Origin: Lachnospiraceae bacterium
GTDB taxonomy: Bacteria; Bacillota; Clostridia; Lachnospirales; Lachnospiraceae
Direction: 5' to 3'
DNA: 42,645 nucleotides
Assembly: GCA_017453865.1 (NCBI GenBank)
Contig: JAFTEC010000029.1
Coordinates: forward strand, 1 to 42,645
Part shown: piece by piece, positions 22,911 through 39,848 of the stretch
How the letters are laid out: the number at the start of each line of letters is the position of its first letter
Numbering within the stretch: the stretch's first letter is position 1
The notes under the pieces: model-generated
The model's database searches: none
What the model was told of the DNA's origin: nothing
What the model saw: the letters and a program-made list of their open reading frames with translations, nothing else
Program-made: the position numbers and the translations under genes

Positions 22911-23215
22911 CCTTGCTTATCACTGTTTTTGCGGCTGTTATGGTGACCGCTTTATGGTACAGCAGGAAGAATGACGAGATGCAGTTATTGACACTTTGCT
23001 TCCTTTACTGGGGTGCTTCCCTTATGTGGCTTGTAGATGCGGTGTTTGGATATGCAGAGGACGGTGCAGCGTTCTTTTCCCCGGCACTTGAGGATATGCT
23101 GAATGATACCTATCTCGGACTCTCGGTGGTTGCCTTAGGGCTCGTGATCTGGATCGTAAAGCTCCTTATCACAGATCCTAAGGGGTCGGTCCGGATGGCT
23201 CTTAAGAAGGACTAA
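22907..23215 (+). CDS. Small membrane protein of unknown function (second of pair)
   Basis: 102 residues with three likely membrane segments: about 3-17, 24-45 (LLTLCFLYWGASLMWLVDAVFG) and 68-88 (TYLGLSVVALGLVIWIVKLLI). The tail is basic. The loop after the second segment is acidic (YAEDGAAFFSPALEDM). No catalytic motif is seen. It is coupled to the preceding gene by ATGA, and its stop overlaps by four bases the stop of the convergent DMT transporter gene. Function unknown; a membrane complex with its neighbour is the simplest reading. Confidence 0.78.
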   Translation: MTLLITVFAAVMVTALWYSRKNDEMQLLTLCFLYWGASLMWLVDAVFGYAEDGAAFFSPALEDMLNDTYLGLSVVALGLVIWIVKLLITDPKGSVRMALKKD

Positions 23216-24135
23216 TTTCCGTCCTTATTCCGGCTATGCTTTCGTTCCGGCAGGGAGACGGGCAGCTCAGACAGGATCACGGCGAGAAAAAGAATCCCGC
23301 AGCCCGCTGTTTCCCTGGGACTTAAGCTCTGCCCCAGGACAATCCAGCCTGTGATGGCTGCAAATACAGACTCCATGCTCATGATAAGTGAGGCTACTGC
23401 GGGGTCTGTATTTTTTTGCGCAACGACCTGCAGGGTATAGCCTATGGCACCGGAAAAGAGCCCCACATAGAGAACAGAAGGGGCTCCCTCGCAGATATCC
23501 GTAATAGAGGGTCTTTCAAAGATAAGGAGACCCGGCAGGACTATCAGGGCAGCGGCCATAAACTGGAGGTTAGAAAGCTTTATTACATTCCTTACCCTGA
23601 CGGAATAATAGCCCACGCAGATTATCTGGAATGAGAACAGAAGGGCACAGAGGATCACAAGGGCATCGCCCATTCCCACGGTGAAGTTTTCTTTTACACT
23701 GATAAGATAGAGGCCTGAAAGTCCCAGAAGTGTACAGATCCAGGTCTTCCTTTCCGCTTTCCTCCCGAGGAAAAGCGAGATAAGAGGGACCAGCACCACA
23801 TAGAGGGTAGTGATAAAGCCGGCCTTTCCTGCGGTGGTGTAACGGATCCCGGCCTGCTGTGCAATGCTGGCAAGTCCCAGAAAGGCGCCGCAGAGAAGAG
23901 CTCCCTTCAGCAGTGTTTTCTTTTCCTCCGGATTTTCTTCTTTTCCCGCCTTTTTCTCACTGAATACGGATACAGGGATAAGTACCAGGGCTGACAGTAC
24001 ATAGCGGGTAAACACGAATGTCCAGGGATCTAAGGATCTTGAACCCACACTTTGAGCCACGAAAGCACTTCCCCATATCAGTGCGGTAATAAGAAGCAGG
24101 AGCGGACTTATTATCTTTGTTTTGTTTAGCTTCAT
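23212..24135 (-). CDS. DMT superfamily transporter (EamA family)
   Basis: 307 residues from ATG at 24135 (minus strand, AAAGGAAAG about 13 bases upstream). It shows ten hydrophobic segments in two EamA repeats. The first repeat begins LLLITALIWGSAFVAQSVGSRSLDPWTF; the second contains GALLCGAFLG through GLSGLYLISV and the closing QSLSPRETAGCGILF. Members export amino acids or other metabolites, or take up sugars; substrate not predictable. A Lys/Glu-rich cytoplasmic loop (EKKAGKEENPEEKKT) follows TM2. It is divergent from the permease-GGDEF gene and convergent with the small membrane gene. Confidence 0.9.
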   Translation of the reverse strand: MKLNKTKIISPLLLLITALIWGSAFVAQSVGSRSLDPWTFVFTRYVLSALVLIPVSVFSEKKAGKEENPEEKKTLLKGALLCGAFLGLASIAQQAGIRYTTAGKAGFITTLYVVLVPLISLFLGRKAERKTWICTLLGLSGLYLISVKENFTVGMGDALVILCALLFSFQIICVGYYSVRVRNVIKLSNLQFMAAALIVLPGLLIFERPSITDICEGAPSVLYVGLFSGAIGYTLQVVAQKNTDPAVASLIMSMESVFAAITGWIVLGQSLSPRETAGCGILFLAVILSELPVSLPERKHSRNKDGN

Positions 24136-24195
24136 TTGTGTTCGGTGCTTTCCTTTCAAAAATGGCAGACCCTCCTACTATACCTCAACTGCGTA

Positions 24196-24225
24196 TTGCA
24201 GTAAAGAGTAAAGTAGGGTTATAAT
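24196..24225 (+). promoter_or_regulatory. Promoter for the permease-GGDEF gene
   Basis: TTGCAG (24196-24201), an 18-base spacer, and a perfect TATAAT (24220-24225). It lies 63 bases before the ATG at 24288. Confidence 0.6.
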
Positions 24226-24226
24226 T

Positions 24227-24236
24227 AAGGAGGTGA
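24227..24236 (+). promoter_or_regulatory. Strong Shine-Dalgarno far upstream of the permease start
   Basis: AAGGAGGTGA is an almost perfect anti-16S match but lies about 50 bases before the permease ATG, which has its own GTGAGGAAA. It could serve GTG 24238, opening a frame of about 42 codons that overlaps the permease start in another frame. It may be a leader peptide or a ribosome standby site. Confidence 0.35.
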
Positions 24237-24287
24237 TGTGGTCCCTGAGAGCGGGGAGAGACGTTACATTTTCAGTGAGGAAATATC

Positions 24288-26510
24288 ATGGATGCTTCTG
24301 AAAATAAGAGTGGAAATGGTCTTGACCGGTATCTGTCGCCTCTTGCCATTTGGGCGATATCCGTAGGTACCGCAATAGGGTGGGGATCCTTTGTTGTTAC
24401 GGGTAATTCCTATCTTTCAAGTGCCGGACCCTTGGGGAGCGTCCTCGGAATCCTGATCGGTGCTGCCGTTATGGTGGTTGTCGCCAGAAATTACCATTAT
24501 ATGATGGAGATTTTTCCTGATTCCGGCGGCGCCTATACATATACCAGAACTACCTTTGGCTTTGACTACGGCTTCCTTACAGCCTGGTTTTTGGGACTGA
24601 CCTATGTGTCCATTTTCTGGGCAAATGTCACCTCACTTCCCATATTTGCCGGTTATTTTTTGGGTGATCTTTTCCGTTTCGGTTTTCATTATTCCGTTTT
24701 CGGTTACGAGATCTATTTCGGGGAAATACTGCTCTCAATGGCAGCCATAGTGATATCGGTGCTTTTTTGCACATTGACGAAAAAGCTGAAGATATTGGTG
24801 GTGATCGTGCTTTCTCTTGTTTTTTCCGTCGGGATCACGGTTTGCTTTGTTTTGGCATTTATCCGGCTCGGAGGGAATTATGAGGTTATGAAGCCGGTCT
24901 TCATACCCGGTGGAAACATTGCTTTCCAGATAGCGCACATCGCCTGCATTTCTCCCTGGGCGTTCATCGGATTTGAAAATATATCCAATCTTACGGAGGA
25001 GATCAATTTCCCCGTAAAAAAGGTATTCAGGATATTGCTTATTTCCATTCTGACGGTTACGCTTCTCTATATTTTCCTGTTTCTTCTTTCGGTGTCTGCC
25101 TTTCCTCCGGAGTATGACAGCTGGCTTTCGTATATCAGAGACACCGGTTCCTTAAGCGGACTAAAGGGTCTGCCCGCGTTCTATGCCGCAAACAGGAATA
25201 TCGGGCCTGCAGGGGAGATAGTACTTCTCTTTGTCCTCTTTTCGGTTGTTATCACCAGTCTTATCGGCAATACTCTGGCATTGAGCCGCCTTATGTATGC
25301 ATTGTCAAAGGATCAGGTCATGCCGGAAAAATATTCAAGGCTTAACAGGCAGAAGAGCCCTGTGGATGCATTCAGGCTCATCGTGATCGTATCGCTCATC
25401 ATTCCTTTTTTCGGACGGACCGCTGTTGGGTGGATCGTGGATGTGACAACACTCGGAGCTACCATTATTTACGGCTTTGTTTCGGGCTCCGCTTTTATAA
25501 AGGCCCGGAAGGAGGGTCGGGTGGTCGAGACCGTAACGGGTCTGTTGGGTGTCATTGTCATGATTGTTTTTGTGGTGATGCTCTTACTTCCGAATTTTCT
25601 GTACACCGGGGCGATGGCTACGGAATCCTATTTCCTTTTTGCTGTCTGGGCCGTGATCGGAATTATATTCTTCCGGCATATCCTGCTCCATGACCATAAG
25701 GACAGAAGGTTTGGAAAAACAGGAATTGTATGGGTGGTACTTCTTATGCTGATACTTATGACAAGCCTTGAATGGGTGAAGCAGATCTCGGCTATTTATA
25801 CCCGAACCTCAATGGAGAATATCATCTCCCATTACAGGCTGGAAAGCACGGAAGAAGAACAGGATCAGACGACGGATGATTTTGTCAGGGCTGAAATGGA
25901 AAAGCTTGGACTGATCAATAATTATTCGATCGGTGTTACCCTTATTCTTTTTACCTTTGCCGTGTGGATCATCTTAAGCAACCAGTCAATAATGGTGAAG
26001 CGTGAAACCGAACACGAAAGAGAACTGAACGAAGCAAGGGCAGCCGCATATACGGATCCTCTTACCGGAGTGAAGAGCAAGGCAGCTTACGCTGCGAGAG
26101 AGAGCCAGTTTGAGAATCTGGTAAACAGCAGGGATATTGAAGAATTTGCAGTAGTAGTCTGCGATATAAACGGGTTAAAGCAGGTAAATGACTCCATGGG
26201 GCATAAGGAGGGGGATGAGCTTATCAAGAGTGCCTGCCGTATGATTTGCGGGCTGTTCAAGCACAGCCCTGTTTTCAGGGTAGGCGGAGACGAATTTGTG
26301 GTGCTGCTGACCGGACAGGACTATGAGAGAAGACTGGAGATCATGGAGGATCTGAACAGAAGGGTCGAATATAATAAAATGAACTGCCAGGTAGTGATCG
26401 CGGCAGGCTTATCCGAATACGTTCCGGAAACGGACAAAACCTACCGCGAGGTCTTTGAAAGAGCCGATGCCCTTATGTATGTGAGAAAAAATGAACTGAA
26501 GAACGGGTGA
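24288..26510 (+). CDS. APC-type amino acid permease fused to a GGDEF (diguanylate cyclase) domain
   Basis: 740 residues. Residues 15-465 form an APC superfamily transporter: opening motif TAIGWGSFVVTG, FPDSGGAYTYTRTTFG (76-91), and about twelve membrane helices. Two extra helices (about 479-497 and 546-566) enclose a polar loop of about 48 residues. A short coiled linker leads to a GGDEF domain (about 586-740) with YTDPLTGVKSK, metal Asp D626 in CDINGLKQVND and an intact GGDEF (666-670). The inhibitory RxxD site before GGDEF is replaced by FKHS. The domain should make cyclic di-GMP at the inner membrane face. Whether the permease part still transports or only senses is open. Ligand is probably an amino acid or amine. 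Confidence 0.9.
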   Translation: MDASENKSGNGLDRYLSPLAIWAISVGTAIGWGSFVVTGNSYLSSAGPLGSVLGILIGAAVMVVVARNYHYMMEIFPDSGGAYTYTRTTFGFDYGFLTAWFLGLTYVSIFWANVTSLPIFAGYFLGDLFRFGFHYSVFGYEIYFGEILLSMAAIVISVLFCTLTKKLKILVVIVLSLVFSVGITVCFVLAFIRLGGNYEVMKPVFIPGGNIAFQIAHIACISPWAFIGFENISNLTEEINFPVKKVFRILLISILTVTLLYIFLFLLSVSAFPPEYDSWLSYIRDTGSLSGLKGLPAFYAANRNIGPAGEIVLLFVLFSVVITSLIGNTLALSRLMYALSKDQVMPEKYSRLNRQKSPVDAFRLIVIVSLIIPFFGRTAVGWIVDVTTLGATIIYGFVSGSAFIKARKEGRVVETVTGLLGVIVMIVFVVMLLLPNFLYTGAMATESYFLFAVWAVIGIIFFRHILLHDHKDRRFGKTGIVWVVLLMLILMTSLEWVKQISAIYTRTSMENIISHYRLESTEEEQDQTTDDFVRAEMEKLGLINNYSIGVTLILFTFAVWIILSNQSIMVKRETEHERELNEARAAAYTDPLTGVKSKAAYAARESQFENLVNSRDIEEFAVVVCDINGLKQVNDSMGHKEGDELIKSACRMICGLFKHSPVFRVGGDEFVVLLTGQDYERRLEIMEDLNRRVEYNKMNCQVVIAAGLSEYVPETDKTYREVFERADALMYVRKNELKNG

Positions 26511-26526
26511 AGGATCTTGATTTCCC

Positions 26527-27816
26527 TCACTCCATACCATCAAAAAGGAGCTCCGCACTTACCAGCCGTACACATACCGTGAAAAGCCTTGCAGCGGTGG
26601 AAAGATCCTCAAGGGTCGGATAAGTCGGAGCTATTCTTATGTTCTTATCCTCGGGGTCATTATGGTAAGGCCAGGTGGAGCCTGCAGGCGTAAGCTTAAC
26701 ACCGGCTTTCATTGCCCTGTCAACTATGAGCTTTGCACTTCCCTTCATCCCGTCGAAGCTTATGAAGTAGCCTCCATTGGGCTTTGTCCATTCAGCGATC
26801 CCGAGTCCTCCGAGATTTTCCTCGAAGATATTTTCCACAGATTCAAACTTTGGCCGGAGTATATCCGCATGTCTTCTCATGTGCTCCGTCATACCGTGGA
26901 TATCCTTGAAGAAACGGACGTGGCGGAGCTGGTTTACCTTGTCATGTCCTATGGTCTGGTTCCTGAGCTGCGTCTTTATGTCCTCCAGATTGTTGGCGCT
27001 GGTGGCAATGGCCGCAAGTCCGCTTCCGGGGAAGGTGATCTTCGACGTGGATGAAAACTTATATACCAGATCCGGATTTCCGGCTCTCTTGCACTCGGCA
27101 AGTATCTCTATAAGGTAATCCTGATGGTCGTCATAAAGGTGGTGTATGCCGTAGGCATTGTCCCAGTATATACGGAAGTCCTTGGCAGCGGGTTTAAGTC
27201 TCGCGAAGCGCCTTACCGTTTCGTCGCTGTAGGAGTAGCCCTGGGGATTTGAGTATTTCGGAACACACCAGATACCCTTTATTGCCTTGTCCTCCGCAAC
27301 CATCTTCTCCACTATGCCCATATCGGGACCTGCAGGCGTCATGGGAACGGGGAGCATCTCTATGCCGAAGTATTCCGTTATGCTGAAATGCCGGTCATAG
27401 CCGGGAACCGGACACAGCCACTTTACCTTGTCAAGCTTACACCAGGGAGTATTTCCCATAACCCCGTGGGTAAAGGAACGGGAGATCTGGTCATACATGA
27501 CATTGAGGGAAGAATTTCCGTAGATCAGGATGTTTTTCGGGTTATTCTCCATCATATCCCCCAAAAGCTCCCTTGCTTCCTGAATACCCTCCAGCAGTCC
27601 GTAATTCCGGCAGTCGGTGCCGTCAGCGCAGGAGAGATCCGCACGGGAATTCAGGGCATCCATCATACCCATTGAGAGATCGAGCTGATCAAGACAGGGC
27701 TTACCCCTGCTCATATCCAGCTTCAGCTCCATTCCCTGATATTTCCTGTATTCTGACCGGAGGCTCTCTATCTCAACGGACAGCTCTTCTTTAGTCATTT
27801 CAAGATATGATTTCAT
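26527..27816 (-). CDS. PLP-dependent aminotransferase, aspartate aminotransferase-like (PF12897 type)
   Basis: 429 residues, fold type I. Landmarks are MSRGKPCLDQLDLS (35-48), YGNSSLNVMYDQ, N190 in KYSNPQGYSYS, D219 in YWDNAYGIHH and the Schiff-base lysine K259 in FSSTSKITFPGSG. This subgroup resembles the MocR-like/subgroup Ic aspartate aminotransferases. It likely interconverts aspartate or alanine with 2-oxo acids in the cytoplasm. GAGAGGTG precedes ATG by 6 bases on the minus strand. It is convergent with the permease-GGDEF gene and divergent from the ECF operon. Confidence 0.9.
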   Translation of the reverse strand: MKSYLEMTKEELSVEIESLRSEYRKYQGMELKLDMSRGKPCLDQLDLSMGMMDALNSRADLSCADGTDCRNYGLLEGIQEARELLGDMMENNPKNILIYGNSSLNVMYDQISRSFTHGVMGNTPWCKLDKVKWLCPVPGYDRHFSITEYFGIEMLPVPMTPAGPDMGIVEKMVAEDKAIKGIWCVPKYSNPQGYSYSDETVRRFARLKPAAKDFRIYWDNAYGIHHLYDDHQDYLIEILAECKRAGNPDLVYKFSSTSKITFPGSGLAAIATSANNLEDIKTQLRNQTIGHDKVNQLRHVRFFKDIHGMTEHMRRHADILRPKFESVENIFEENLGGLGIAEWTKPNGGYFISFDGMKGSAKLIVDRAMKAGVKLTPAGSTWPYHNDPEDKNIRIAPTYPTLEDLSTAARLFTVCVRLVSAELLFDGME

Positions 27817-27875
27817 TTATTGCACCTCTCTTAATGAATGTAATTCTGAAGGCCAAAATGCCGAGGTTTTAATAC

Positions 27876-27899
27876 GTCACTTGCGGTTCCGCAAGTGAC
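27876..27899. promoter_or_regulatory. 24-base near-perfect palindrome in the divergent region
   Basis: GTCACTTGCGG and CCGCAAGTGAC are exact inverse complements separated by TT. It lies in the 224-base gap between the aminotransferase (minus) and the ECF operon (plus), 65-90 bases upstream of the operon's predicted promoter. It could be an operator for the NiaR-like domain encoded in the operon, or an RNA hairpin in the aminotransferase leader. No T-run follows on either strand, so a terminator is unlikely. Confidence 0.5.
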
Positions 27900-27962
27900 T
27901 GTTCTGAATAGTTACTTGGGTCTTCCTTATTCTATCAGAAATCTCCCATTTTGAAAAACCGA

Positions 27963-27991
27963 TTGACTTAAGGGTGTTGAGGCTGTAAAAT
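27963..27991 (+). promoter_or_regulatory. Promoter of the ECF operon
   Basis: TTGACT (27963-27968), a 17-base spacer and TAAAAT (27986-27991). It lies about 50 bases before the first ATG. TGTCTTGTCA lies between -10 and the start, but no clear dyad overlaps the promoter. Confidence 0.6.
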
Positions 27992-28040
27992 CAGTTATAC
28001 ATTTACATCTGTCTTGTCACCTTAAAGGAGCGTAAATTTA

Positions 28041-28607
28041 ATGAAAAAAGATCTTCTGCTTGTCATAGATATGCAGAATGTTTACGGGCAGGGAGGAGCC
28101 TGGTGCTGTCCGGGATCCGGAAGGGCCGCGGATAATATCCTGAAGCTTATCCGAAACGGAGGGGACGGCCTTAATGTTATTTTTACGAGATTTCTTTCGG
28201 ATGACTCAGCGGAGGGTGCCTGGAGGGATTACAACCTGGAAAACGCGGACATCAATAATGATGCCTATGCAAACGAAATGATGGAAGCTATGGAGGAGGA
28301 ATTAAAGAAGCATCCCCTTTACACCAAATCGGTTTATTCCTCTCTTTCGATTCCCGAGGTAAAAAGGGCAGTATGTGAGGCGGACAGGGTTCTTCTGTCC
28401 GGAGTGGTGGCAGAATGCTGTGTACTGTCAACGGCCTTCGCCGCTATAGATGAGGGGGCACAGGTAATTTATCTAAAGGATTGTGTTTCGGGACTGGATA
28501 AGGTGACCGAAAAGGCCACCGAAACCGTTCTTTCAGGTCTCGTTCCTCTTCAGGTCAGGATAATGACAGGTGACGAATATCTTTTGGAAAAGCGAAACGC
28601 CGGATAG
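28041..28607 (+). CDS. Isochorismatase-like cysteine hydrolase
   Basis: 188 residues with the cysteine-hydrolase triad: D10 (LLVIDMQN), K96 (YTKSVYSS) and C127 (GVVAECCVLSTA). Family members hydrolyse amides or vinyl ethers: nicotinamide, isochorismate, ureidoacrylate, N-carbamoylsarcosine. The metal-binding DxH...H of nicotinamidases is not present (FTRFLSDDSAEGAW occupies that area), so a plain PncA assignment is not supported. AAAGGAG precedes ATG by 10 bases. It leads an operon with an ECF transporter and a NiaR-PfkB fusion, suggesting it works on the imported compound or releases it. Confidence 0.85.
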   Translation: MKKDLLLVIDMQNVYGQGGAWCCPGSGRAADNILKLIRNGGDGLNVIFTRFLSDDSAEGAWRDYNLENADINNDAYANEMMEAMEEELKKHPLYTKSVYSSLSIPEVKRAVCEADRVLLSGVVAECCVLSTAFAAIDEGAQVIYLKDCVSGLDKVTEKATETVLSGLVPLQVRIMTGDEYLLEKRNAG

Positions 28608-28636
28608 CCGGAAAGACAGACAAAGGAGAAAAGATC

Positions 28637-29239
28637 ATGTCAAATATTTTCAAAACAAAACTCAATGCAGCTACTATAGTTCTGATACCTGCCTGTATAG
28701 GTATCAATTATCTCGGGAAGCTTTTTGCGCAGTTTCTGAAGCTCCCGCTGTGGCTTGACTGCATAGGCACCTGCATCGGAGCCGCCCTCGGCGGTCCCGT
28801 GATCGGTGGTATCTGCGGAGCGGTCAATAATATCATCTACGGTCTTACCACCGGAGATAATATCTCCCTTGTTTACGCTCTCACAAGCCTTGGAATAGGT
28901 ATTGCGGTAGGTATCACCGCGAGGCTGGGCTTTATGGAGACATTTCCGAAATCCTTCGTATGTGCCCTTGCGGGAGGACTTGCCGCGGTGATCATTTCCA
29001 CTCCCTTAAACGTGATGTTCTGGGGAGGCACCACGGGTAATGTCTGGGGCGATGCACTCTTTGCCGTAACACAGGCAAACGGAATGCCGGTAGTCGTCGG
29101 ATCCTTCCTTGACGAGCTTGTGGTTGATGTGCCGGACAAGATACTGACGGTCATAATCGCCTTCCTGATCCTTAAGGGTCTTCCGGCGAAGCTTAAGGCT
29201 CTTTATGATGTGAATGCGGAGATAGAAAGACTGGATTAA
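28637..29239 (+). CDS. ECF transporter S (substrate-binding) component
   Basis: 200 residues, mostly hydrophobic, with five to six membrane segments. The start ATIVLIPACIGINYLGKLFA has small residues at the TM1 face that docks to EcfT. WLDCIGTCIGAALGGPVIGGICGAVNNIIYGL is typical of S components of the CD3073-like class, as far as I recall. S components bind a vitamin or related compound and are energised by EcfT plus two ATPases, which follow here. The substrate is not readable; the operon hints at a pyridine or nucleoside-like compound. AAAGGAG lies about 9 bases before ATG. Confidence 0.85.
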   Translation: MSNIFKTKLNAATIVLIPACIGINYLGKLFAQFLKLPLWLDCIGTCIGAALGGPVIGGICGAVNNIIYGLTTGDNISLVYALTSLGIGIAVGITARLGFMETFPKSFVCALAGGLAAVIISTPLNVMFWGGTTGNVWGDALFAVTQANGMPVVVGSFLDELVVDVPDKILTVIIAFLILKGLPAKLKALYDVNAEIERLD

Positions 29240-30016
29240 ATGAGCGCATTAAGTCTCTATGTGGATAAGGGGAGCTTCTTAAATAAGCTGCACCCCTATA
29301 CAAAGCTTCTGTATGTTTTTGCGGCGATACTGATCCCGCTTATCGGGGGAAGGCTTCTCATCTTCCCCCTTACCATACTGTTCAGCCTGATACTCCTTCT
29401 GACCGGGAGGGTCTTCAGGCGGGCCCTGCCCCTTGTGGCATTTTCCTTTACCCTTATCATTGTGATCTTTCTGATACAGGGGCTTTTTTATCATAAGAAC
29501 GAGAATCCGCTTTTTAATATCCGGATACTGACCTTTTACAGGGAGGGCGTGATATATGCGGCGGGCATAGCCTTAAATATCTTAAACATGCTCTTAAGCT
29601 TTGCGGTGTTCGTACTCACCACCGCACCGCAGGATCTGGTGGAGGAAATGGAGAAAAACGGTTTTTCACCGAAATTCGGATATGTCATCAATTCTGTTTT
29701 CCAGATAGTACCCCAGATGATGAAGACCAGGGATACCATAGTCGATGCCCAGAGAAGCAGAGGCATGGAAACCGAAGGCTCCCTGTTCACCAGGATCCGG
29801 GCCTTTCTTCCCCTTATCTCTCCCGTTGTAATGAGTGCCCTCATTAATACCAGGGAAAGGGCTATAGCCCTGGAGGTACGGGGCTTCGGGAGAAGGAATA
29901 AGAGAAGCTATATCACGGACAGGAAAAAGAGTTGCGCCGATATAGTCATAAGCATTATTCTGGCGGTCCTTATCCTTGCTGTTTCTGTATGGAGGATACT
30001 GTCATGCCTATCATAA
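29240..30016 (+). CDS. ECF transporter transmembrane component EcfT (CbiQ family)
   Basis: 258 residues. Four to five membrane helices frame a cytoplasmic helical region with the two coupling motifs AQRSRG (170-175) and ALEVRG (210-215), variants of the Ala-Arg-Gly motifs that grip the ATPases. The ATG follows the S-component stop without a gap. The 3' end overlaps the ATPase gene by 13 bases. It is the scaffold of a dedicated ECF transporter. Confidence 0.92.
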   Translation: MSALSLYVDKGSFLNKLHPYTKLLYVFAAILIPLIGGRLLIFPLTILFSLILLLTGRVFRRALPLVAFSFTLIIVIFLIQGLFYHKNENPLFNIRILTFYREGVIYAAGIALNILNMLLSFAVFVLTTAPQDLVEEMEKNGFSPKFGYVINSVFQIVPQMMKTRDTIVDAQRSRGMETEGSLFTRIRAFLPLISPVVMSALINTRERAIALEVRGFGRRNKRSYITDRKKSCADIVISIILAVLILAVSVWRILSCLS

Positions 30017-31653
30017 AAGCAGAGCACTTAAAGGACAGATATCCCAATACGGAGAAGCTTGCATTAAACGATATTTCCCTTGAGATAGAGAAGGGGGAAT
30101 TTATCGGGATAGCCGGAAGGAACGGCGCAGGAAAGAGCAGCCTCGGTCAGGCGATAAACGGTCTGGTGCCAAGATTTTATAACGGTGCTTACGGAGGCAG
30201 GGTTGAGGTGAACGGGAGAGTGGTGGCAGAGACTCCGGTTGAGGAAATGTGCGAGTTTGTGGGACTTATCTTCCAGAATCCCTTTAACCAGCTGTCGGGA
30301 GCGGCGGAAACGGTTTTTAATGAAGTGGCATACGGACTTCAGAACCTCGGAACAGAGCCGGATGTCATCCTGTCACGTGTGGAACAGGTATTAAAGCGGC
30401 TTGATATCTGGCAGTACAGGGACAGAAATCCCTTTGAGCTGTCGGGCGGGCAGATGCAGAGAGTCGCTATTGCAAGTATCCTCTGTATGGAGCCTGACAT
30501 AATAATCCTTGATGAGCCCACGTCCCAGCTTGATCCCCAGGGAACCGAGGAGGTTTTCAGGGTTGTGGATGACCTGACCGAAACCGGCATCACCATCATA
30601 ATGATTGAGCAGAAGCTTGAGAAGCTCGCCCATTACGCTGACAGGATCATCCTTATGAGCGAAGGACGCGTGATCGATTTTGATACTCCGGAAAGGATCT
30701 TTTCAAGGGATGACCTTTCCAAATACGGAGTGCAGCCTCCGGCCTATACAAGGATATGCAGGGAATACGGACTTTCCCTGCCGGACGGTACATATCCTGT
30801 GAAGCTCGAGGATACGAGGAAGCTTTTTCTGGAAAAGAATATAAGGCCAGAGAGAGAAGCGGAGGAGCATATTTCCCGCGTGAGAAATGTATCCTCCGGT
30901 ACTGAGGAGCTCTTCAGGATGGAGAATGTGGATTTCCATTATACGGAAGGAACGCCGATCTTTGATAAGCTTTCCCTGAGCTTAGACAACCGTCCAACTG
31001 CCATAATAGGACAGAACGGTGCGGGAAAGACTACGCTGGTGAGGCTTTTAAAGGGGCTTTTGAAGCCTGTCGGCGGCAGAATATATTTCAAAAAAGATGA
31101 CATTTCGAAGAAAACCGTGGCTATGCTTGCGGATAAGGTGGGATATGTTTTCCAGAATCCCGATGACCAGATATTTAAATATAACGTACTTGATGAGACC
31201 ATGTTCGGACCCTTAAATATCGGGATGACAGCGGAAAAGGCAAGGGAGGAGGCACTGAAGGCTCTGGAACTTATGGGGCTTAAGGGCAGGGAAAACATAA
31301 ATCCCTACGATCTGGAGCTCTATGAGAGGAAGATGACTGCAATTGCCTCGGTGGTCGCCATGGATACGGACGTGATAATTCTTGACGAGCCCACGATCGC
31401 CCAGGATTATGAGGGACGGAAGCTTATCGGAGGGATGATAGGACACCTTTCCTCACGGGGAAAGCTCGTGATAGCCATACTCCATGACATGGATTTTGTG
31501 GAGGAGAATTTTGAGAGAGTTATCGTAATGTCGCACGGCAGGATACTTTCTGAGGGCAGCGCCGGAAAGGTATTTTCAGAGGATGATGTACTGTCGGAAG
31601 CAAAGCTGCAGAAGCCCTATATCACTGCTTTAAGGGAACTGCTTGGAGTCTGA
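30004..31653 (+). CDS. ECF transporter ATPase, two fused ABC domains
   Basis: 549 residues from ATG 30004 (GGAGG 8 bases upstream); an earlier in-frame start is unlikely because it would lie deep in ecfT. Half 1 has Walker A GRNGAGKS (38-45), signature LSGGQ (146-150), Walker B IIILDE, but Gln203 where the H-loop His is expected (MIEQKLE). Half 2 has Walker A GQNGAGKT (336-343), Walker B VIILDE, H-loop His494 (AILHDMD), but the signature is degenerate (LELYERK, 438-443 region). In the head-to-tail dimer the good parts combine into one intact ATP site and the altered parts into another. It powers uptake with EcfT and the S protein. Confidence 0.93.
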   Translation: MPIIKAEHLKDRYPNTEKLALNDISLEIEKGEFIGIAGRNGAGKSSLGQAINGLVPRFYNGAYGGRVEVNGRVVAETPVEEMCEFVGLIFQNPFNQLSGAAETVFNEVAYGLQNLGTEPDVILSRVEQVLKRLDIWQYRDRNPFELSGGQMQRVAIASILCMEPDIIILDEPTSQLDPQGTEEVFRVVDDLTETGITIIMIEQKLEKLAHYADRIILMSEGRVIDFDTPERIFSRDDLSKYGVQPPAYTRICREYGLSLPDGTYPVKLEDTRKLFLEKNIRPEREAEEHISRVRNVSSGTEELFRMENVDFHYTEGTPIFDKLSLSLDNRPTAIIGQNGAGKTTLVRLLKGLLKPVGGRIYFKKDDISKKTVAMLADKVGYVFQNPDDQIFKYNVLDETMFGPLNIGMTAEKAREEALKALELMGLKGRENINPYDLELYERKMTAIASVVAMDTDVIILDEPTIAQDYEGRKLIGGMIGHLSSRGKLVIAILHDMDFVEENFERVIVMSHGRILSEGSAGKVFSEDDVLSEAKLQKPYITALRELLGV

Positions 31654-31657
31654 CCGA

Positions 31658-33112
31658 ATGAAGGGAAACGACAGAAGGAAGAAGATAATCGAATATCTGG
31701 AGGGTGCGAGAGAGCCTGTTTCCGGAAAGAAGCTGGCGTCTCTTTTCAATGTGAGCCGTCAGGTCATAGTGCAGGACATAGCCCTTCTCCGTGCGGAGCG
31801 CTATGAGATCTCCTCAACGAATAACGGGTATCTTCTTTCGAAAAAGAAGAGCGCAGTCCGTGTTTTCAAGGTGAATCACAGCGATGAAGCCGTGGCTGAC
31901 GAGCTGAAGCTTATAACGGATCTCGGGGGACTGGTGCAGGACGTCTTTGTCTACCACAAGGTATACGGGACCGTGAGAGCGGATCTGAATATCGGGAGCA
32001 GGGTGGATATAGAGCATTTTCTGTCGGATATAAAGAGCGGCAAATCCAGTCTTTTGAAAAATGTTACCGCCGGCTATCATTATCACACGGTAAGTGCAAA
32101 TTCCGAGGCGCTTCTCGATATCATACAGGAAAAGCTCAGGGAACGGGGATACCTTGCATCCCTGCAGGACTTTGAACCCGTGGAATTCCGGAAGAAAGGA
32201 AAGGGCTCCCCGAAAAAGAAGGTAAGGATCCTTGGAGCAGGGGTTGCCACCATGGACATCTATCCCGAAAAGAAGAGGATGTATCCCGGCGGAAACGAAT
32301 ATAACGTGGTATGCAATGCAGCGCTCCTAAATGCCGAGGCGGGATTTCTCGGGGTATTCGGGAATTACTTAGCAGGAGAGCTTCTTAAGGAGACCTTGAA
32401 CGAGCTTCGGGTGGATACCTCAAAATGCCGTAATGAAAAGGGCTCCAGCGGTTACAGTATTGTAATACTGAAGGAGGACGGTGACAGGATCTTCCTCGAC
32501 TGGAATAAGGAGGGGGTGACGGATCTCCATCCGGTAAAGTTCACCCCGGAAGAGACAGACTATGTTAAAAGCTTTGACGTTATCACCATGGGACGGGTCG
32601 CGGATGTTACGCCGGAAACCATTAAGCGGCTCCATGAGGATGAGGATATCGGGATATGCTATGACTTCCATTCGGCATTTACCGATGAGGATATCGAAAT
32701 GATAGCGCCGCATGTGAAGTACGGCTTTTTTTCCTGCAGCCACCTCGATGAAGCTGAGATTAGACGGGTATTGAAGAAGGCCGCGGATCTTGGCTGCGGC
32801 ATAGCGGTTGGGACAAGAGGCTGTGATCCCATCATCGCATATGACGGTGAAAGCTATTACGTTCATAAGGTGGAAAAGGTTGATGCAACAGATGCCCTGG
32901 GTGCGGGGGATTCCTTTATCGGAGCCTTTCTGGTCGATTATATTTCGGGCAGAAATGAGGGCCGCCTACGGGAGGAGGGGATAAGACACGCCCTGAAAGC
33001 GGCTGCCTCCCACGCGGCAACGGTGGTCGTAAAAGAGGGCAGTGTAGGTATAGGATATGACTATGATCCGCCGTCCTTCGGAGAAGTAATAAATAAGGAC
33101 AAAACAAAGTAA
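31658..33112 (+). CDS. Fusion of NiaR-type repressor (HTH + 3H domain) with PfkB sugar/nucleoside kinase
   Basis: 484 residues from ATG 31658 (GGAG 9 bases upstream). Residues 5-62 are the HTH of the NiaR/YrxA niacin repressor ([20 protein letters not shown]). Residues about 70-168 are the 3H ligand domain: H74, E82, H141 and H143 match, in spacing, the metal ligands I recall for Thermotoga TM1602, and VYHKVYG is conserved. A short linker precedes a PfkB kinase (188-470) with GGNEYNV (211-217) and catalytic D418 in ALGAGDSF; it most resembles FrlD-type kinases. So one chain could sense a niacin-like ligand, bind DNA and phosphorylate a substrate. It closes the ECF operon. Domain calls are firm; the substrate is inference. 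Confidence 0.85.
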
Positions 33113-33124
33113 AAGTGATATACT
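33096..33124 (+). promoter_or_regulatory. Extended -10 promoter for rubrerythrin
   Basis: TATACT (33119-33124) preceded by TGA forms an extended -10. AGGACA (33096-33101) at 17 bases is a partial -35. It overlaps the stop region of the fusion gene, and no PerR-like box was recognised. Confidence 0.5.
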
Positions 33125-33162
33125 TAGCAGACAAGGTATTTTCAAAAAGGAGGACACAAAAT

Positions 33163-33705
33163 ATGGCAAATAACCCTTACGCTGGAACAAAGACAGAGAA
33201 GAATCTTCAGGAAGCATTTGCGGGAGAATCACAGGCAAGAAATAAGTATACCTACTTTGCATCCGTAGCAAAGAAGGCAGGCTATGAACAGATCGCTGCA
33301 ATGTTCTTAAAGACCGCCGATAATGAGAAGGAGCATGCAAAGCTCTGGTTCAAGGAGCTCGGAATGCTGGGAACGGTTGAGGAGAACCTGGCTGCGGCAG
33401 CAGACGGAGAGAACTTCGAGTGGACCGATATGTACGAGCGCATGGCAAAGGAAGCCGAGGAAGAGGGCTTTACCGCACTGGCGGCAAAGTTCCGCGGCGT
33501 AGCAGCCATCGAGAAGATGCATGAGGAAAGATACAGGAAGCTCCTTCAGAATGTGGAAGCAAAGCAGGTATTCGAAAAGAGCGAGGTAAAGGTTTGGGAA
33601 TGCCGCAACTGCGGGCATATCGTTGTGGGAACAAAGGCTCCCGCTGCCTGCCCCGTATGTGCACATCCCCAGTCATTCTTCGAGGTTCATGAGGATAATT
33701 TCTGA
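33163..33705 (+). CDS. rbr: Rubrerythrin
   Basis: 180 residues from ATG 33163, which has AAAAAGGAGG 8 bases upstream; the longer GTG-started frame is not needed. An N-terminal diiron ferritin-like domain has the ExxR and ExxH blocks ([33 protein letters not shown]). A C-terminal rubredoxin-like domain has CRNCG and CPVC, the four cysteines that hold one iron. It reduces hydrogen peroxide in the cytoplasm of anaerobes. It stands alone with its own promoter between the ECF operon and metK. Confidence 0.97.
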
Positions 33706-33734
33706 TTGACAGAAAAGCACTCTTAGAGTACATT
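33706..33734 (+). promoter_or_regulatory. metK promoter
   Basis: Perfect TTGACA (33706-33711) directly after the rubrerythrin stop, a 17-base spacer and TACATT (33729-33734). Transcription would start just ahead of the riboswitch. Confidence 0.6.
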
Positions 33735-33770
33735 AGTAGTCGAGAGTTCACAAATGAATATGATAATATT

Positions 33771-33876
33771 CTCTTATTAAGAGTGATGGAGATGCAAAGG
33801 ATCTGTGAAGTCACGACAACCTCCCGCGGTAACGGGAAGGTGCCACCCTTGAGCGAGTAATATCGAACAATGAGAG
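33771..33876 (+). promoter_or_regulatory. SAM-I (S-box) riboswitch aptamer upstream of metK
   Basis: P1 is CTCTTA (33771-33776) with TGAGAG (33871-33876). Inside are the S-box landmarks TTATTAAGAG, GATGGAGATG, the ACAACC core block and AAGGTGCCA, in the conserved order. It binds S-adenosylmethionine, the product of the gene it precedes, and high SAM should favour the terminator that follows. The GGAGGGA box of the consensus is altered to GGAGATG, a mild variant. Confidence 0.88.
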
Positions 33877-33892
33877 GATTTGATGAAAAGTC

Positions 33893-33921
33893 GAGTCCAC
33901 TCTGCAAAGGTGGACTCTTTT
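33893..33921 (+). terminator. Intrinsic terminator of the SAM riboswitch
   Basis: GAGTCCAC (33893-33900) pairs perfectly with GTGGACTC (33910-33917) across a nine-base loop and is followed by TTTT. It is the expression platform, about 40 bases before the metK ATG. Confidence 0.85.
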
Positions 33922-33958
33922 CTGCTAATGTCAATTTTTTAAGAAAAGGAGTGAAAAT

Positions 33959-35164
33959 ATGGAAAAAAGGTTATTTACTTCAGAATCGGTTACCGAAGGA
34001 CATCCCGACAAGGTGTGCGACGCCATATCGGATGCGATCCTTGACGAGTGCATGAGACAGGATCCAATGAGCCGTGTTGCCTGTGAGACCATGGCCTGCA
34101 CGGGCTTCGTGGTAGTCACCGGTGAGATCACCACAAAGGCCTATGTGGACATTCAGAAGACCGTCCGCGATACCGTCCGTGAGATCGGCTACACAAAGTC
34201 CGAGTACGGCTTTGATGCGGATACCTGCGCGGTGTTTACGGCAATAGACGAGCAGTCTGCGGATATAGCCATGGGTGTGGACAATGCCCTTGAGACCAAG
34301 GCGGATCTAAAGGCCCTGGAAAAGAATATGTCGGATGATGAGATCGGTGCCATCGGAGCCGGAGACCAGGGAATGATGTTCGGCTATGCTTCAAACGAGA
34401 CACCCGAGTATATGCCCTACCCCATCGACCTTGCCCATAAGCTCACTCTTCAGCTTACAAAGGTAAGGAAGGACGGAACCTTAAAATATCTCCGTCCCGA
34501 CGGAAAGTCACAGGTTTCGGTTGAATACGATGAGAACGGTAAGCCCTCGAGGCTTGAAGCCGTCGTTATCTCCACGCAGCATGATGATGATGTTACCCAG
34601 GAGCAGATACATAAGGACATCAAGAAGTATGTATTTGATCCCGTTGTTCCCTCGGGAATGATAGATGACAGGACTAAGATCTACATTAACCCTACCGGCC
34701 GATTTGTAATAGGCGGACCTCACGGTGACGCCGGCCTTACGGGAAGGAAGATCATAGTCGACACCTACGGCGGGTACGCGCGTCACGGCGGCGGTGCCTT
34801 CTCCGGAAAGGACTGCACGAAGGTTGACCGTTCCGCAGCCTATGCCGCAAGGTATGTGGCAAAGAACATTGTGGCAGCGGGACTTGCGGACCAGGTTGAG
34901 ATACAGCTTTCATATGCCATCGGTGTTGCGGAGCCCACATCGGTACAGGCCGATACCTTCGGCACCGGAAAGGTGAGCGACGAGGAGCTTACGAAGATAA
35001 TCCGCGAGAACTTCGACCTTCGCCCCGCCGGCATCATAAAGATGCTGGATCTCCGCCGTCCTATCTATAAGCAGACCGCAGCCTACGGTCACTTCGGAAG
35101 GACCGATGTGGATCTTCCCTGGGAGAAGGTGGACAAGGCTGATGCGTTGAAGAAATACCTTTAA
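33959..35164 (+). CDS. metK: S-adenosylmethionine synthetase
   Basis: Makes S-adenosylmethionine from methionine and ATP. The 401 residues are close to the family length. Motifs include [12 protein letters not shown] (substrate and metal site), [12 protein letters not shown] (hexapeptide region), [18 protein letters not shown] and [18 protein letters not shown] (P-loop). AAAAGGAG lies 7 bases before ATG. Expression is controlled by the S-box leader. It is single-gene, since a repeat element separates it from dnaE. Confidence 0.98.
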
Positions 35165-35174
35165 GAAAGCTGAT

Positions 35175-35265
35175 GTCATCCTGAGCGTCAGCAACGCATA
35201 TCTCACATCAAAGATGTGAGATGCCGCCCCGGCGAGGGGTTGCGAAGCAACAGTAAGGATCTTTT
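35175..35265 (+). repeat. Multi-hairpin intergenic element, copy B, before dnaE
   Basis: Outer arms ATCCT (35178-35182) and AGGAT (35256-35260) enclose four possible hairpins: GCGT/ACGC (35185-35197), a perfect ten-pair ATCTCACATC/GATGTGAGAT with AAA loop (35200-35222), CCCC/GGGG (35227-35239) and GTTGC/GCAAC (35239-35251). It shares CCTGAGCG and AAGGATCTTTT with copies A and C. Its last part, AAGGA, is at the right distance to act as the dnaE ribosome site. Confidence 0.6.
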
Positions 35266-35267
35266 AT

Positions 35268-38200
35268 ATGAGTTTTGTTCATTTACATACACATACGGAA
35301 TACTCCTTACTGGACGGTTCCAATAAGATAAAAGAATATGTGGCGAGGGTAAAGGAACTCGGGATGAACGCAGCCGCCATCACTGACCACGGGGTCATGT
35401 TCGGCGTGATAGAATTTTATAATGCCTGCAGAGATGCAAACATAAATCCGGTGCTGGGGTGCGAGATCTATGTCTCCCCCGGCTCCAGATTTGATAAGGA
35501 AGCCGGTATGAATGAGGACAGGTACCACCATCTGGTGCTGCTTGCCGAAAACAATACCGGCTACCATAATCTTATGAAGATAGTATCCGTGGGACATACC
35601 GAGGGTCATTATTATAAGCCCAGAGTGGATATGGAGACTCTGGAAAGATACCACGAGGGACTTATCTGTCTTTCCGCCTGTCTTGCGGGGGAGATCCCAA
35701 AGAACATAATAAGGGGGCTTATCGGGGAAGCCGAAAAGGCCGCGCTGAAATACCGGAATATCTTCGGCAGGGACAATTTCTTTCTGGAGCTGCAGGATCA
35801 CGGGATCAGGGAGCAGCAGCTGGTGGATCAGACCCTGATATCCATGTCAAAGAAGCTTGATATTCCGCTTGTCTGCACAAATGACTGTCATTATACCAAT
35901 GCCGCCGATGCGGAGCCCCACGACATACTGCTCTGCCTGCAGACCGGAAAGAAGCTTAGTGACACCGACCGCTTAAGATACGAGGGCGGACAGTATTATG
36001 TGAAATCCGAGGAGGAAATGCGGGCCCTCTTTTCCTATATCCCGGAGGCCTTGGAAAACACCCAGAGGATAGCCGACAGATGTCAGGTGGACATAGAGTT
36101 TCACAGGACGAAGCTGCCGCATTTCGCATATCCGGAGGAATTTCCGGATTCCTACGCATATCTTAAATTTCTTTGTGACAGGGGATTCAAGGAGCGTTAT
36201 CCCGATGATGACGGAAGCCTTTATAAAAGGATGGAGTATGAGCTTTCCGTCATACAGACCATGGGATTCGTGGACTACTTCCTGATAGTCTGGGACTATA
36301 TTAATTTCGCAAAGGAGCATGGCATCTCAGTCGGACCCGGGCGCGGTTCGGCTGCCGGGAGCCTGGTTTCCTATGCACTGAAGATAACGGATATCGATCC
36401 CGTTAAATATGATCTTCTTTTCGAGAGGTTCCTAAATCCCGAAAGAGTGTCAATGCCTGATATAGACGTGGATTTTGCCTTTGAAAAGAGGCAGGAGGTT
36501 ATTGACTATGTGGTCGAAAAGTACGGCAGGAAGAACTGTGTACAGATAGTCACCTTTATTACCCTTGCCGCCAAGGGAGTGATAAGGGACGTATCCCGCG
36601 TGATGGACCTTCCCTACGCCTTCGGGGACAATCTTTCAAAGATGATCCCCAACGAACTGAATATCACCCTGAAAAGGGCCATGGAGGAGAATAACGATCT
36701 ACGGAAGCTCTATGAGGCGGATGAGGATGTAAAGCGTGTCATAGACATGAGCATGAAGCTGGAGGGGCTTCCGAGAAATTCGTCGATCCATGCCGCAGGC
36801 ATACTGATAACTCCTGAGGAAGCGGATAATTATGTGCCTCTGTACAGGGGCCAGAACGGCGAGATAACCACCCAGTTCGTGATGACCACTCTTGAAGAGC
36901 TGGGGCTTCTGAAGATGGACTTTCTGGGACTTCGTACCCTTTCCGTCATCCAGAATGCGGTAAGGTTCATTAATGAGAGACAGGGGATAAGTCTGGATAT
37001 CGATAAGATTGATTATGATGATCCTGAAACCCTTAAGTTTATCTCCACAGGAGAAACGGACGGCGTTTTCCAGCTGGAATCCGCCGGGATGCAGCGCTTC
37101 ATGAAAGAGCTTTCACCGGAAAAGCTGGAGGACATAATAGCCGGTATAGCACTTTACAGACCGGGACCTATGGACTTTATCCCACGTTATATAGAGGGAA
37201 AGAAGAACCGGGATAAGGTCAGCTATCTCTGCCCGGAGCCGGAGCCCATACTTAAGCCTACTTACGGCTGCATAGTCTACCAGGAGCAGGTTATGCAGAT
37301 ATTCAGGGATCTGGCGGGATATTCCCTGGGAGCCGCGGATATCATACGTCGTGCCATGAGTAAGAAAAAGCAGAAGGATATCGATGCGAACCGGGATATC
37401 TTTGTGTACGGCGGAGAAACAAGGGTTCGGGATACGGTGCAGAAGATACCGGGCTGTGTGGCAAACGGCATCAGGGAAGAAGCGGCTCTTGAAATCTACG
37501 CGAGTATGAATGATTTTGCCAAGTACGCCTTCAATAAATCCCATGCGGCCTGCTATGCATATGTGACCATGCAGACAGCATATCTTAAATGCCATTATCC
37601 CGTTGAATTTATGGCGAGTCTTATGACAAGCGTGCTTGACAACATCGTGAAGCTTGCCGGGTATATGATGTCCGCAAGGAGCATGGGCATAAAGATACTT
37701 CCACCGGATATTAACCTCGCGGTTTCCGGCTTTTCTCCCGCAGGGGATTCGGAGATCCGTTACGGGCTTTCCGCCATAAAGTCCGTGGGGGTTCCTGTCA
37801 TAAAGGCTGTGGAAAACGAGAGGGAATGTAACGGGGATTTTACCTCCTTTACGGATTTTATAAACCGAATGGCCGGGAACGAGATCAATAAGCGGACGGT
37901 TGAAGCCTTTATCAAGGCCGGAGTATTCGACTCCTTTAACGGAAACCGGCGTCAGTATATGGAGGTATACGAGTCCATGCTGGACAACGCCGTAAGGGCA
38001 AAGAAAGACAGCATAGCAGGACAGATGTCCATATTTGATATTCTGGATAAGGAGGAGGGGGCTCCGTCAGGTGGGGACGTTCTCCCCGATGTGGAGGAAT
38101 ATCCCGAGGAAGCCAAGCTTCTCTTTGAAAAGGAGGTCCTGGGGATCTATCTCACGGGACATCCTCTGTCGGAATACACGAAGCTCATAAAAAAGCATGC

Positions 38201-38744
38201 GGACGCTTCGAGCACGGATTTTCTCCTGAATCCAGAGACCAATGCCATAGGGATCAGAGAGGGGAAAAGGGTCACCATAGGAGGAATGATCTCCTCTGTG
38301 AGACGGAGGCAGACAAAAAAGGGTGATACCATGGCGGTCCTTACCTTAGAGGATATGCTTGGAGTTGTTGAGTGTATAGCCTGGCCAAGGATATACGCGG
38401 AGTACGGAAGCCTTCTTACAGAGGATTCAAAGGTGTTCCTTACGGGCAGGGTCAAGGCCGATGATGAAAAGGACGGTCAGCTTATGATAGATGAAGTCAT
38501 TGCCTTTGACAAGATCGGGGGTACCCTGTACATACGCTTCAAGGATCTTGATTCCTATAAGGAAAAAACCGCAGAGCTCGAAAAGGCTCTTTCAGCCTCA
38601 CAGGGACGTGACAGGGTGGTGGTCTATCTCGATAAGGAGAAAAAGCAGAAGGCTTATCCCCCTTCGCAAAACGTCAGAGCCGATGATATCCTGATCTCAT
38701 CGCTGAAATCACTGTTCGGAGACGAAAATATTAAGCTTGTGTAG
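35268..38744 (+). CDS. dnaE: DNA polymerase III alpha subunit, DnaE type
   Basis: 1158 residues, normal for DnaE. The PHP domain starts HLHTHTEYSLLDG (5-17) with its metal-binding histidines preserved. The polymerase core has GPGRGSAAGSLVSY and the catalytic D400 and D402 in PDIDVDF; later come SIHAAGI and NKSHAACYAYVTMQTAYLKCHYP. The helix-hairpin-helix and an OB fold (about 1005-1085, TIGGMISSVRRRQTKKGD) complete it. It is the DnaE replicase or lagging-strand polymerase; Clostridia also carry PolC, not present here. The only start with a reasonable ribosome site is ATG 35268, with AAGGA provided by the preceding repeat element. Confidence 0.96.
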   Translation: MSFVHLHTHTEYSLLDGSNKIKEYVARVKELGMNAAAITDHGVMFGVIEFYNACRDANINPVLGCEIYVSPGSRFDKEAGMNEDRYHHLVLLAENNTGYHNLMKIVSVGHTEGHYYKPRVDMETLERYHEGLICLSACLAGEIPKNIIRGLIGEAEKAALKYRNIFGRDNFFLELQDHGIREQQLVDQTLISMSKKLDIPLVCTNDCHYTNAADAEPHDILLCLQTGKKLSDTDRLRYEGGQYYVKSEEEMRALFSYIPEALENTQRIADRCQVDIEFHRTKLPHFAYPEEFPDSYAYLKFLCDRGFKERYPDDDGSLYKRMEYELSVIQTMGFVDYFLIVWDYINFAKEHGISVGPGRGSAAGSLVSYALKITDIDPVKYDLLFERFLNPERVSMPDIDVDFAFEKRQEVIDYVVEKYGRKNCVQIVTFITLAAKGVIRDVSRVMDLPYAFGDNLSKMIPNELNITLKRAMEENNDLRKLYEADEDVKRVIDMSMKLEGLPRNSSIHAAGILITPEEADNYVPLYRGQNGEITTQFVMTTLEELGLLKMDFLGLRTLSVIQNAVRFINERQGISLDIDKIDYDDPETLKFISTGETDGVFQLESAGMQRFMKELSPEKLEDIIAGIALYRPGPMDFIPRYIEGKKNRDKVSYLCPEPEPILKPTYGCIVYQEQVMQIFRDLAGYSLGAADIIRRAMSKKKQKDIDANRDIFVYGGETRVRDTVQKIPGCVANGIREEAALEIYASMNDFAKYAFNKSHAACYAYVTMQTAYLKCHYPVEFMASLMTSVLDNIVKLAGYMMSARSMGIKILPPDINLAVSGFSPAGDSEIRYGLSAIKSVGVPVIKAVENERECNGDFTSFTDFINRMAGNEINKRTVEAFIKAGVFDSFNGNRRQYMEVYESMLDNAVRAKKDSIAGQMSIFDILDKEEGAPSGGDVLPDVEEYPEEAKLLFEKEVLGIYLTGHPLSEYTKLIKKHADASSTDFLLNPETNAIGIREGKRVTIGGMISSVRRRQTKKGDTMAVLTLEDMLGVVECIAWPRIYAEYGSLLTEDSKVFLTGRVKADDEKDGQLMIDEVIAFDKIGGTLYIRFKDLDSYKEKTAELEKALSASQGRDRVVVYLDKEKKQKAYPPSQNVRADDILISSLKSLFGDENIKLV

Positions 38745-38758
38745 CAAAGGAAGCAGAG

Positions 38759-38783: not shown

Positions 38784-38807
38784 AAGACCATCATTCACTC
38801 AAAAAAC

Positions 38808-38836: not shown

Positions 38837-38862
38837 TAGCTGGATTTTGCAGGAGGAGAAAA

Positions 38863-39846: not shown

Positions 39847-39848
39847 AA

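Follow-up and report, generated by a model that had tools for sequence, protein, structure and literature searches.

A NiaR repressor-PfkB kinase fusion in an ECF transporter operon of a Lachnospiraceae bacterium: a candidate salvage unit for pyridine ribosides

NadR joins a helix-turn-helix (HTH) repressor, a nicotinamide mononucleotide (NMN) adenylyltransferase and a P-loop ribosylnicotinamide kinase in one protein, and its signal is nicotinamide adenine dinucleotide or its phosphate, NAD(P). PRK09954 is an HTH-carrying PfkB kinase that has no 3H domain. The nicotinamide riboside (NR) kinase activity of NadR is stated in the abstract of PMC7221760. According to an excerpt of PMC6593275, a large reconstruction of vitamin B3 use in gut bacteria takes PncB/NadV, NadC and NadR as the entries to salvage, and it found known B3 transporters in only 25% of the B3 auxotrophs. 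In the present study, we analysed a stretch of 42,645 nucleotides from a Lachnospiraceae bacterium (the whole stretch is called the window here), which carries a five-gene operon with a transporter of the energy-coupling factor (ECF) type and, as its last gene, a fusion of the niacin repressor NiaR with a PfkB-family kinase. From sequence comparison, we consider it probable that this operon serves to salvage an NAD precursor in the form of a pyridine riboside, NR or nicotinate riboside (NaR) being the most likely. This reading is based on a NiaR-type operator-like site, a niacin pocket that has been kept, the phosphorylase partners found with relatives of the substrate-binding (S) component of the transporter, and the NAD routes that are missing from genomes carrying the operon.

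An earlier note, made from the letters of this DNA alone, had proposed the fusion, and this was confirmed: positions 31658-33112 encode one chain of 484 residues, in which the HTH_11, 3H and PfkB domains all score over their cut-offs and no other profile does. The NiaR part matches solved NiaR structures with E-values of 2e-32 to 1.6e-30. The residues which the note had listed as kept are indeed present. H74, E82, H141 and H143 align with His83, Glu91, His150 and His152 of B. halodurans NiaR by hand-counted positions (metal and niacin residues as named in a part of PMC7713382), and D418 of the kinase, like the whole motif G415-A416-G417-D418, is invariant in 9/9 kinases aligned. The four metal/carboxylate residues are conserved in all 27 NiaR sequences compared. 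The niacin pocket was matched by hand at nine positions and reads V L V Y L F I L L in 7/7 fusions and M L V Y L F M L L in the B. halodurans protein, seven of the nine being identical, with V79 and I125 in place of Met. The search set comprised 61 related genomes, the window's own included, and the 37 closest of them are labelled as the same genus (G and L numbers are our handles). A 3H match was found in each of the nine operon-bearing genomes of this close set, and in G000 the sole 3H match is the fusion itself. Since the metal/carboxylate and pocket residues have been kept and each carrier has one 3H domain, the NiaR half should still sense nicotinate. A decayed NiaR was ruled out by the conserved pocket and the intact HTH.

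At 1e-10, 23 of the 61 genomes matched the fusion or a single half of it, and 11 NiaR-linked kinase loci were read (L029, L030 and L031 were counted once, as G006, G028 and G026). The halves are fused in seven of them (G000, G004, G006, G008, G016, G026 and G028), where 14 to 32 residues separate residue 172 from the kinase and the reading frame is open. In the remaining four (G014, G030, L032 and G373, the last from another genus), the halves are neighbouring genes of the same operon, so that separate halves without a shared context were not seen among the unfused loci. The seven fused forms make one clade next to G014 and G030 in the tree of the kinase part (98/96) and likewise in that of the NiaR part (98/97), and most simply, two genes that were already neighbours in the operon would have been fused once. 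An assembly artefact was ruled out, as the fusion occurs in seven genomes and forms one clade. All 11 NiaR-linked kinases fall on one branch (support 87/97) of a kinase tree with long outgroup branches.

Upstream of the first gene, the promoter given in Table 1 was the best of 14 promoter-like matches in positions 27800-33250 (shuffle mean 6.2, standard deviation 2.9). In the eight operons compared, which are those with a readable start, TTGAC is common to 8/8 aligned upstream regions, and a TTGAC...TAAAAT-like promoter is followed by the operator-like site. The sequence TTTACANNTGTCTTGTCAC is exact in seven of the eight, and L032 has the core TGTCATGTCA with one base changed. The 19-base site of the window is identical at 16/19 positions to the B. 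halodurans NiaR site tested by electrophoretic mobility shift assay (oligonucleotide in a part of PMC7713382); among 5000 dinucleotide shuffles of the 224-base gap none reached 16 and eight reached 15. The core TGTCTTGTCA ends in TCA, not ACA, which is one base off the type I consensus TGT-N4-ACA, and the 10-base core by itself is not a rare sequence (three matches in the window with at most one mismatch against 2.05 expected). In G000, a draft of 2.2 Mb, the operon site was the only match to TTTACANNTGTCTTGTCAC with two mismatches or fewer. With three mismatches allowed, G000 gave 11 matches, five of which are one repeated sequence, against 2 in the reversed-pattern control, and in the other seven genomes the real and control counts were about alike (for example, 25 against 41 in G014); therefore, only near-exact sites are meaningful. 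A wider NiaR regulon in G000 was set aside, there being no second site with two mismatches or fewer. Eleven further sites with one or two mismatches were found in the other seven genomes, and by eye none of them adjoins a recognisable NAD-related gene; most are inside reading frames or at their margins, and one (L072) is located between two genes. The exact core TGTCTTGTCA also stands at nadA/nadB-like genes, named by eye, in L041, L042, L043 and L212, and in L043 the best match to the 19-mer lay elsewhere than this core. In addition, standalone NiaR genes, 47-61% identical to the NiaR part of the fusion, are located behind nad-like genes in eight of 16 loci read by eye (L033, L040-L043 and L045-L047), and NadC of L033 was confirmed by TIGR00078.

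The earlier note had placed a dedicated ECF transporter and a cysteine hydrolase beside the fusion, and profile searches agree, giving the gene order isochorismatase-like cysteine hydrolase, probable S component, T component, fused EcfA-EcfA' and NiaR-PfkB fusion. The S-component gene stands directly before the T and A genes and aligns with positions 2-173 of the 174 of the CD3073 profile NF045596, and its scores to both families are below cut-off. A search with seven S-component queries through 392 genomes of the order gave a match at 1e-20 in 45 of them, and 15, G000 included, have a match with E below 1e-65 as a free-standing gene of about 200 residues. These close relatives are 55-70% identical, and neighbourhoods were read for 12 of the other 14 (G298 and G227 were left out). 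A nucleoside phosphorylase gene heads the S-component operon in seven of the 12 (G371, G229 and G129 of one genus, G192 and G221 of another, G290, and G386), PfkB is present in one, and the two never occur together; NiaR is in the operon in four. PF01048 was confirmed in five of the seven phosphorylases, the genes of G229 and G129 being near-copies of that of G371, and the frame of the G386 gene (L193, about 7300-8054, + strand) is interrupted near its start. The G373 operon ends in NiaR and PfkB. Its upstream region has the exact core, with 15/19 identity to the 19-mer. The exact core also lies inside an inverted repeat upstream in G371, G229 and G129; G192 and G221 have the operator-like TGTCTTTACA, and in G386 a site with 14/19 identity overlaps a possible -35 box. 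Furthermore, G057 has an S component of greater distance (33%) beside two nucleoside hydrolase-like genes, one of them confirmed by profile. On these neighbourhoods, a riboside is the apparent common thread of the transporter's partners.

The same partners also bear on general nucleoside salvage, for example of uridine, that merely happens to be under NiaR. The two phosphorylases scored resemble uridine phosphorylase, with 171 bits each against a cut-off of 280. Because these scores are below the cut-off, the specificity may have shifted, and such phosphorylases can handle NR, as E. coli XapA makes NR from nicotinamide according to an excerpt of PMC3923242. General nucleoside salvage gives no reason for the niacin repressor, for the core at nad-like genes or for the missing NAD routes, and we hold it to be very unlikely.

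Residues D10, K96 and C127 of the hydrolase are invariant in 7/7 orthologues and make up the Asp-Lys-Cys catalytic triad of a cysteine hydrolase. The gene heads eight of the nine NiaR-kinase operons with a readable start, those of G016 and G026 being cut by contig ends. NadE acts on the deamidated dinucleotide. The amide would therefore have to be removed somewhere, and the hydrolase is the candidate. It could instead be a nicotinamidase, with niacin or nicotinamide imported as bases and the kinase only recycling ribose or another nucleoside. The protein belongs to the isochorismatase/nicotinamidase superfamily, its best PDB match is a pyrazinamidase/nicotinamidase (E 5.5e-6), and NiaR of Streptococcus pneumoniae controls niaX, pnuC and nadC, as given in a portion of PMC5343564. 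However, TRFL stands in the hydrolase in place of the D-x-H motif, which four PncA-like proteins from related genomes, named by eye, keep as TRDTH, TLDTH or TADTH, and a canonical PncA was rejected because this metal motif is missing. Moreover, relatives of the S component are accompanied by genes for a nucleoside phosphorylase or a nucleoside hydrolase, and in five of the nine carriers there was no match to a PncB that could use a base. We therefore regard import of the base as quite unlikely.

The main rival to the pyridine riboside reading is fructoselysine 6-kinase activity, in which the kinase would still act on a fructosamine, the operon would salvage an Amadori compound and the hydrolase would split an amide in it. 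Fructoselysine 6-kinase (FrlD, NF007321) is the best named match of the kinase, with 137.7 bits; three of the unfused kinases score 145-161 bits to this profile. In addition, the nearest relative of the kinase outside such operons (47% identical) is in a G057 locus with GntR-like and ABC (ATP-binding cassette) transporter genes, seen by eye, and a weakly FrlB-like deglycase gene; the FrlB-like genes at two kinase relatives of G057 reach 54.2 bits, in this locus, and 125.5 of 430 bits. Against this, the kinase does not reach the family cut-off of 247, and profile search found no FrlB deglycase among the five genes of the operon. Fructosamine salvage also leaves NiaR, the NiaR-type site, the phosphorylase partners and the missing NAD routes unexplained, and we judge it unlikely. 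The kinase probably arose within the fructosamine kinase (FrlD) family, and a shift from a fructofuranosyl-amine to a ribosyl-pyridine would be chemically modest.

NAD routes were examined in the nine operon carriers of the 37 closest genomes. Neither NadA nor PnuC had a match in any of the nine. PncB/NadV (PF04095) had no match in five (G000, G006, G008, G016 and G026), and likewise in six of the 28 other genomes. For NadC and the NadR-type kinase domain, none was over cut-off in the six carriers searched (G000, G004, G006, G008, G014 and G016), the kinase domain among the part of the first-look candidates that was scored. In G006, which is 99% complete, there was no match to NadA, NadC, PncB/NadV or PnuC, nor to the NadR-type kinase domain in the 72 of 96 first-look candidates scored for it; all NAD entries searched were also without a match in G008 (91% complete), G000 (87.5%) and G016 (84%). 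NAD synthase has a match in all 61 genomes, 60 of them over cut-off, and in G006 with E 2e-51. Thus, in several relatives the operon looks like the only recognisable way to NAD. The kinases of G028 and G006 are less than 0.02 apart in branch length, and PncB looks dispensable where the operon is present, because G028 has PncB and G006, with its closely related kinase, has no match. PncB was found in 7/7 phosphorylase-type genomes, which would need it because phosphorolysis gives back the base. As a separate observation, the best NAD synthase match is short in G000, G006, G026, G028 and G019 (open frames of 256-305 residues), and most other same-genus genomes listed have a long NAD synthase of about 650 residues.

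Several observations weigh against salvage of a pyridine riboside. Four of the nine carriers keep PncB, in a shorter type of about 410 residues (G004, G014, G028 and G030); by eye a PncA-like gene adjoins it in G004, G014 and G030, and none does in the stretch read for G028. The long PncB type (open frames of 476-538 residues) is present in 0/9 carriers against 19/28 others (Fisher 4e-4), which speaks in favour of the reading, but this type usually scores only 20-40 bits to PF04095, and some genes of it may have been missed. When any PncB type is counted, the comparison is 4/9 carriers against 22/28 others (p = 0.09) and is not significant, and the genomes compared are drafts of related species that are not independent. 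G373 has both the kinase and PncB, which counts against a strict trade-off, and its operon has no hydrolase; to our knowledge, no enzyme of the hydrolase's kind deamidates NR. Four of the 12 S-component neighbourhoods (G160, G193, G169 and G107) are without kinase or phosphorylase. With regard to the operator, the sites at nad-like genes match the B. halodurans 19-mer at only 13-14/19 and that of G371 at 11/19 only, and no operator-like site was found upstream in G290. To these are added the likeness of the kinase to FrlD and the locus of its G057 relative, described above.

From the observed domains, operon, conserved operator-like site, niacin pocket and gene co-occurrence, we infer a scheme that covers the substrate, the reaction sequence, repression and any influence of one half of the fusion on the other. 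When nicotinate is low, the operon would be on, and the ECF transporter would import the riboside. The PfkB domain would phosphorylate its 5'-OH to nicotinate mononucleotide (NaMN) or NMN, and the hydrolase would take off the amide, either from NR to give NaR or after phosphorylation. The resulting NaMN or NMN could then pass to NAD through NadD and NadE. When nicotinate is high, the NiaR half would bind it together with a metal and shut the operon down from the site that directly follows the -10 box. Through the fusion, the kinase for salvage would be coupled to the repressor that controls its operon, the amount of kinase being equal to that of repressor, and DNA binding or ligand could tune the kinase. 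The earlier note had suggested a nicotinate/nicotinamide riboside-like or an amino-sugar compound. The riboside part was strengthened by the operator-like site, the transporter partners and the missing NAD routes, and what is left of the amino-sugar part is mainly that the kinase probably originated in the FrlD family. Its idea that one chain senses what it phosphorylates received no such support: the conserved pocket matches that of a sensor for nicotinate, which is an unlikely kinase substrate because it has no ribose.

The five genes are on the + strand, each no more than 29 bases from the next or slightly overlapping it, and start codons were picked for two of them, at 30004 and at the ATG 31658, the best start of the last gene. 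The coordinates are collected in Table 1.

Table 1. Positions in the window of the operon genes, the domains of the fusion and the upstream control elements
Feature	Position	Strand	Basis
Sigma-70-type promoter TTGACT-17-TAAAAT	27963..27991	+	10/12 consensus positions
NiaR operator-like site TTTACATCTGTCTTGTCAC, directly 3' of the -10 box	28002..28020	+	Comparison with relatives and with the tested site
Isochorismatase-like cysteine hydrolase, proposed riboside/nucleotide amidase	28041..28607	+	PF00857 74.1 bits; alignments
ECF S component (substrate binding), CD3073-like	28637..29239	+	NF045596 87.3 bits (cut-off 180); PF12822 24.2 bits (cut-off 30.7)
ECF T component	29240..30016	+	PF02361 80.2 bits, over cut-off
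Two ECF ATPases in one chain (EcfA-EcfA')	30004..31653	+	Two ABC_tran matches; TIGR04521 417 bits (cut-off 330)
NiaR repressor-PfkB kinase fusion, 484 residues	31658..33112	+	Profiles and alignment
HTH_11 DNA-binding domain of the fusion, residues 6-58	31673..31831	+	53.8 bits (cut-off 25)
3H niacin/metal-binding domain of the fusion, residues 70-166	31865..32155	+	112.5 bits, whole profile (cut-off 25)
PfkB kinase domain of the fusion, residues 204-462	32267..33043	+	88.9 bits (cut-off 25.8); GAGDS with D418

Upstream of the operon lies an aspartate aminotransferase gene in the opposite orientation, and downstream are a rubrerythrin gene, identified by profile, and then metK, identified by eye. 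An Rfam scan of positions 23000-42645 gave no riboswitch for the uptake operon; its only match was an S-adenosylmethionine (SAM) riboswitch (RF00162, 56.5 bits) at 33771-33876 on the + strand, upstream of metK. Elsewhere in the window, positions 24288-26507 (+) encode one chain of 740 residues with a PF13520 amino-acid permease and a C-terminal GGDEF diguanylate cyclase domain, and near-full-length orthologues of it are present in G006, G028 and G004. Other relatives of the S component were also met. In G307, a distant S component (34%; L212:7483-8061, +) is near a nadABC-like cluster, named by eye, with a NiaR-type core upstream of nadA. Three proteins of about 1200 residues (L207:3898-7446, L208:3584-7369 and L209:3566-7396, all on the - strand) begin with 170-180 residues that are 33-40% identical to the S component of the operon and continue with beta-propeller repeats, Y_Y_Y and either HD_5 or GGDEF; the ECF S-like module is perhaps used there as a receptor in cyclic di-GMP signalling.

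Compared with the E. coli sugar kinase PRK09954, the fusion shares the order of an HTH ahead of a PfkB kinase, but it scores only 23.3 bits to that family (cut-off 561). The S component resembles CD3073 over nearly the whole profile, but stays at 87.3 bits against a cut-off of 180; we know of no substrate for CD3073, and this name was not used among the matches listed in a literature search on CD3073 and ECF transporters. FrlD, of the PfkB family, is the nearest named kinase family. Unlike FrlD, the kinase is below the family cut-off, has no deglycase partner and belongs to the single branch of the 11 NiaR-linked kinases. The likeness to NiaR (YrxA; structures 7cv0/7cv2, 9ebr and 1j5y) takes in the full-length HTH and 3H domains, the metal and niacin residues and a similar operator, whereas the fusion differs in its C-terminal kinase and in its place in a transporter operon, not beside nad genes. 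Among the matches listed, which cover part of the literature, neither a NiaR-PfkB fusion nor an ECF importer for NR is described. If our reading is true, a PfkB riboside kinase and an ECF importer would fill both gaps, the salvage entry and the transporter, for organisms that seem unable to make NAD, and this would bear on which gut bacteria are fed by nicotinamide riboside supplements.

NadR appears to be the closest functional analogue of the fusion. As in the enterobacterial NadR, one chain would be both the repressor of NAD-precursor genes and, as proposed here, an NR kinase. Unlike NadR, with which it shares no domain, the fusion is composed of the HTH_11 and 3H of NiaR and of PfkB, has no adenylyltransferase, and its expected signal is nicotinate rather than NAD(P). 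The evidence leaves us evenly divided on the wider proposal of a second, independent NadR plan: a niacin repressor with a new PfkB-family NR/NaR kinase, fed by an ECF-type riboside importer, as the sole NAD route in some Lachnospiraceae without de novo synthesis and PncB, with the same kind of transporter joined to a riboside phosphorylase in other genera. If it is true, a riboside kinase has been joined to an NAD repressor twice in evolution.

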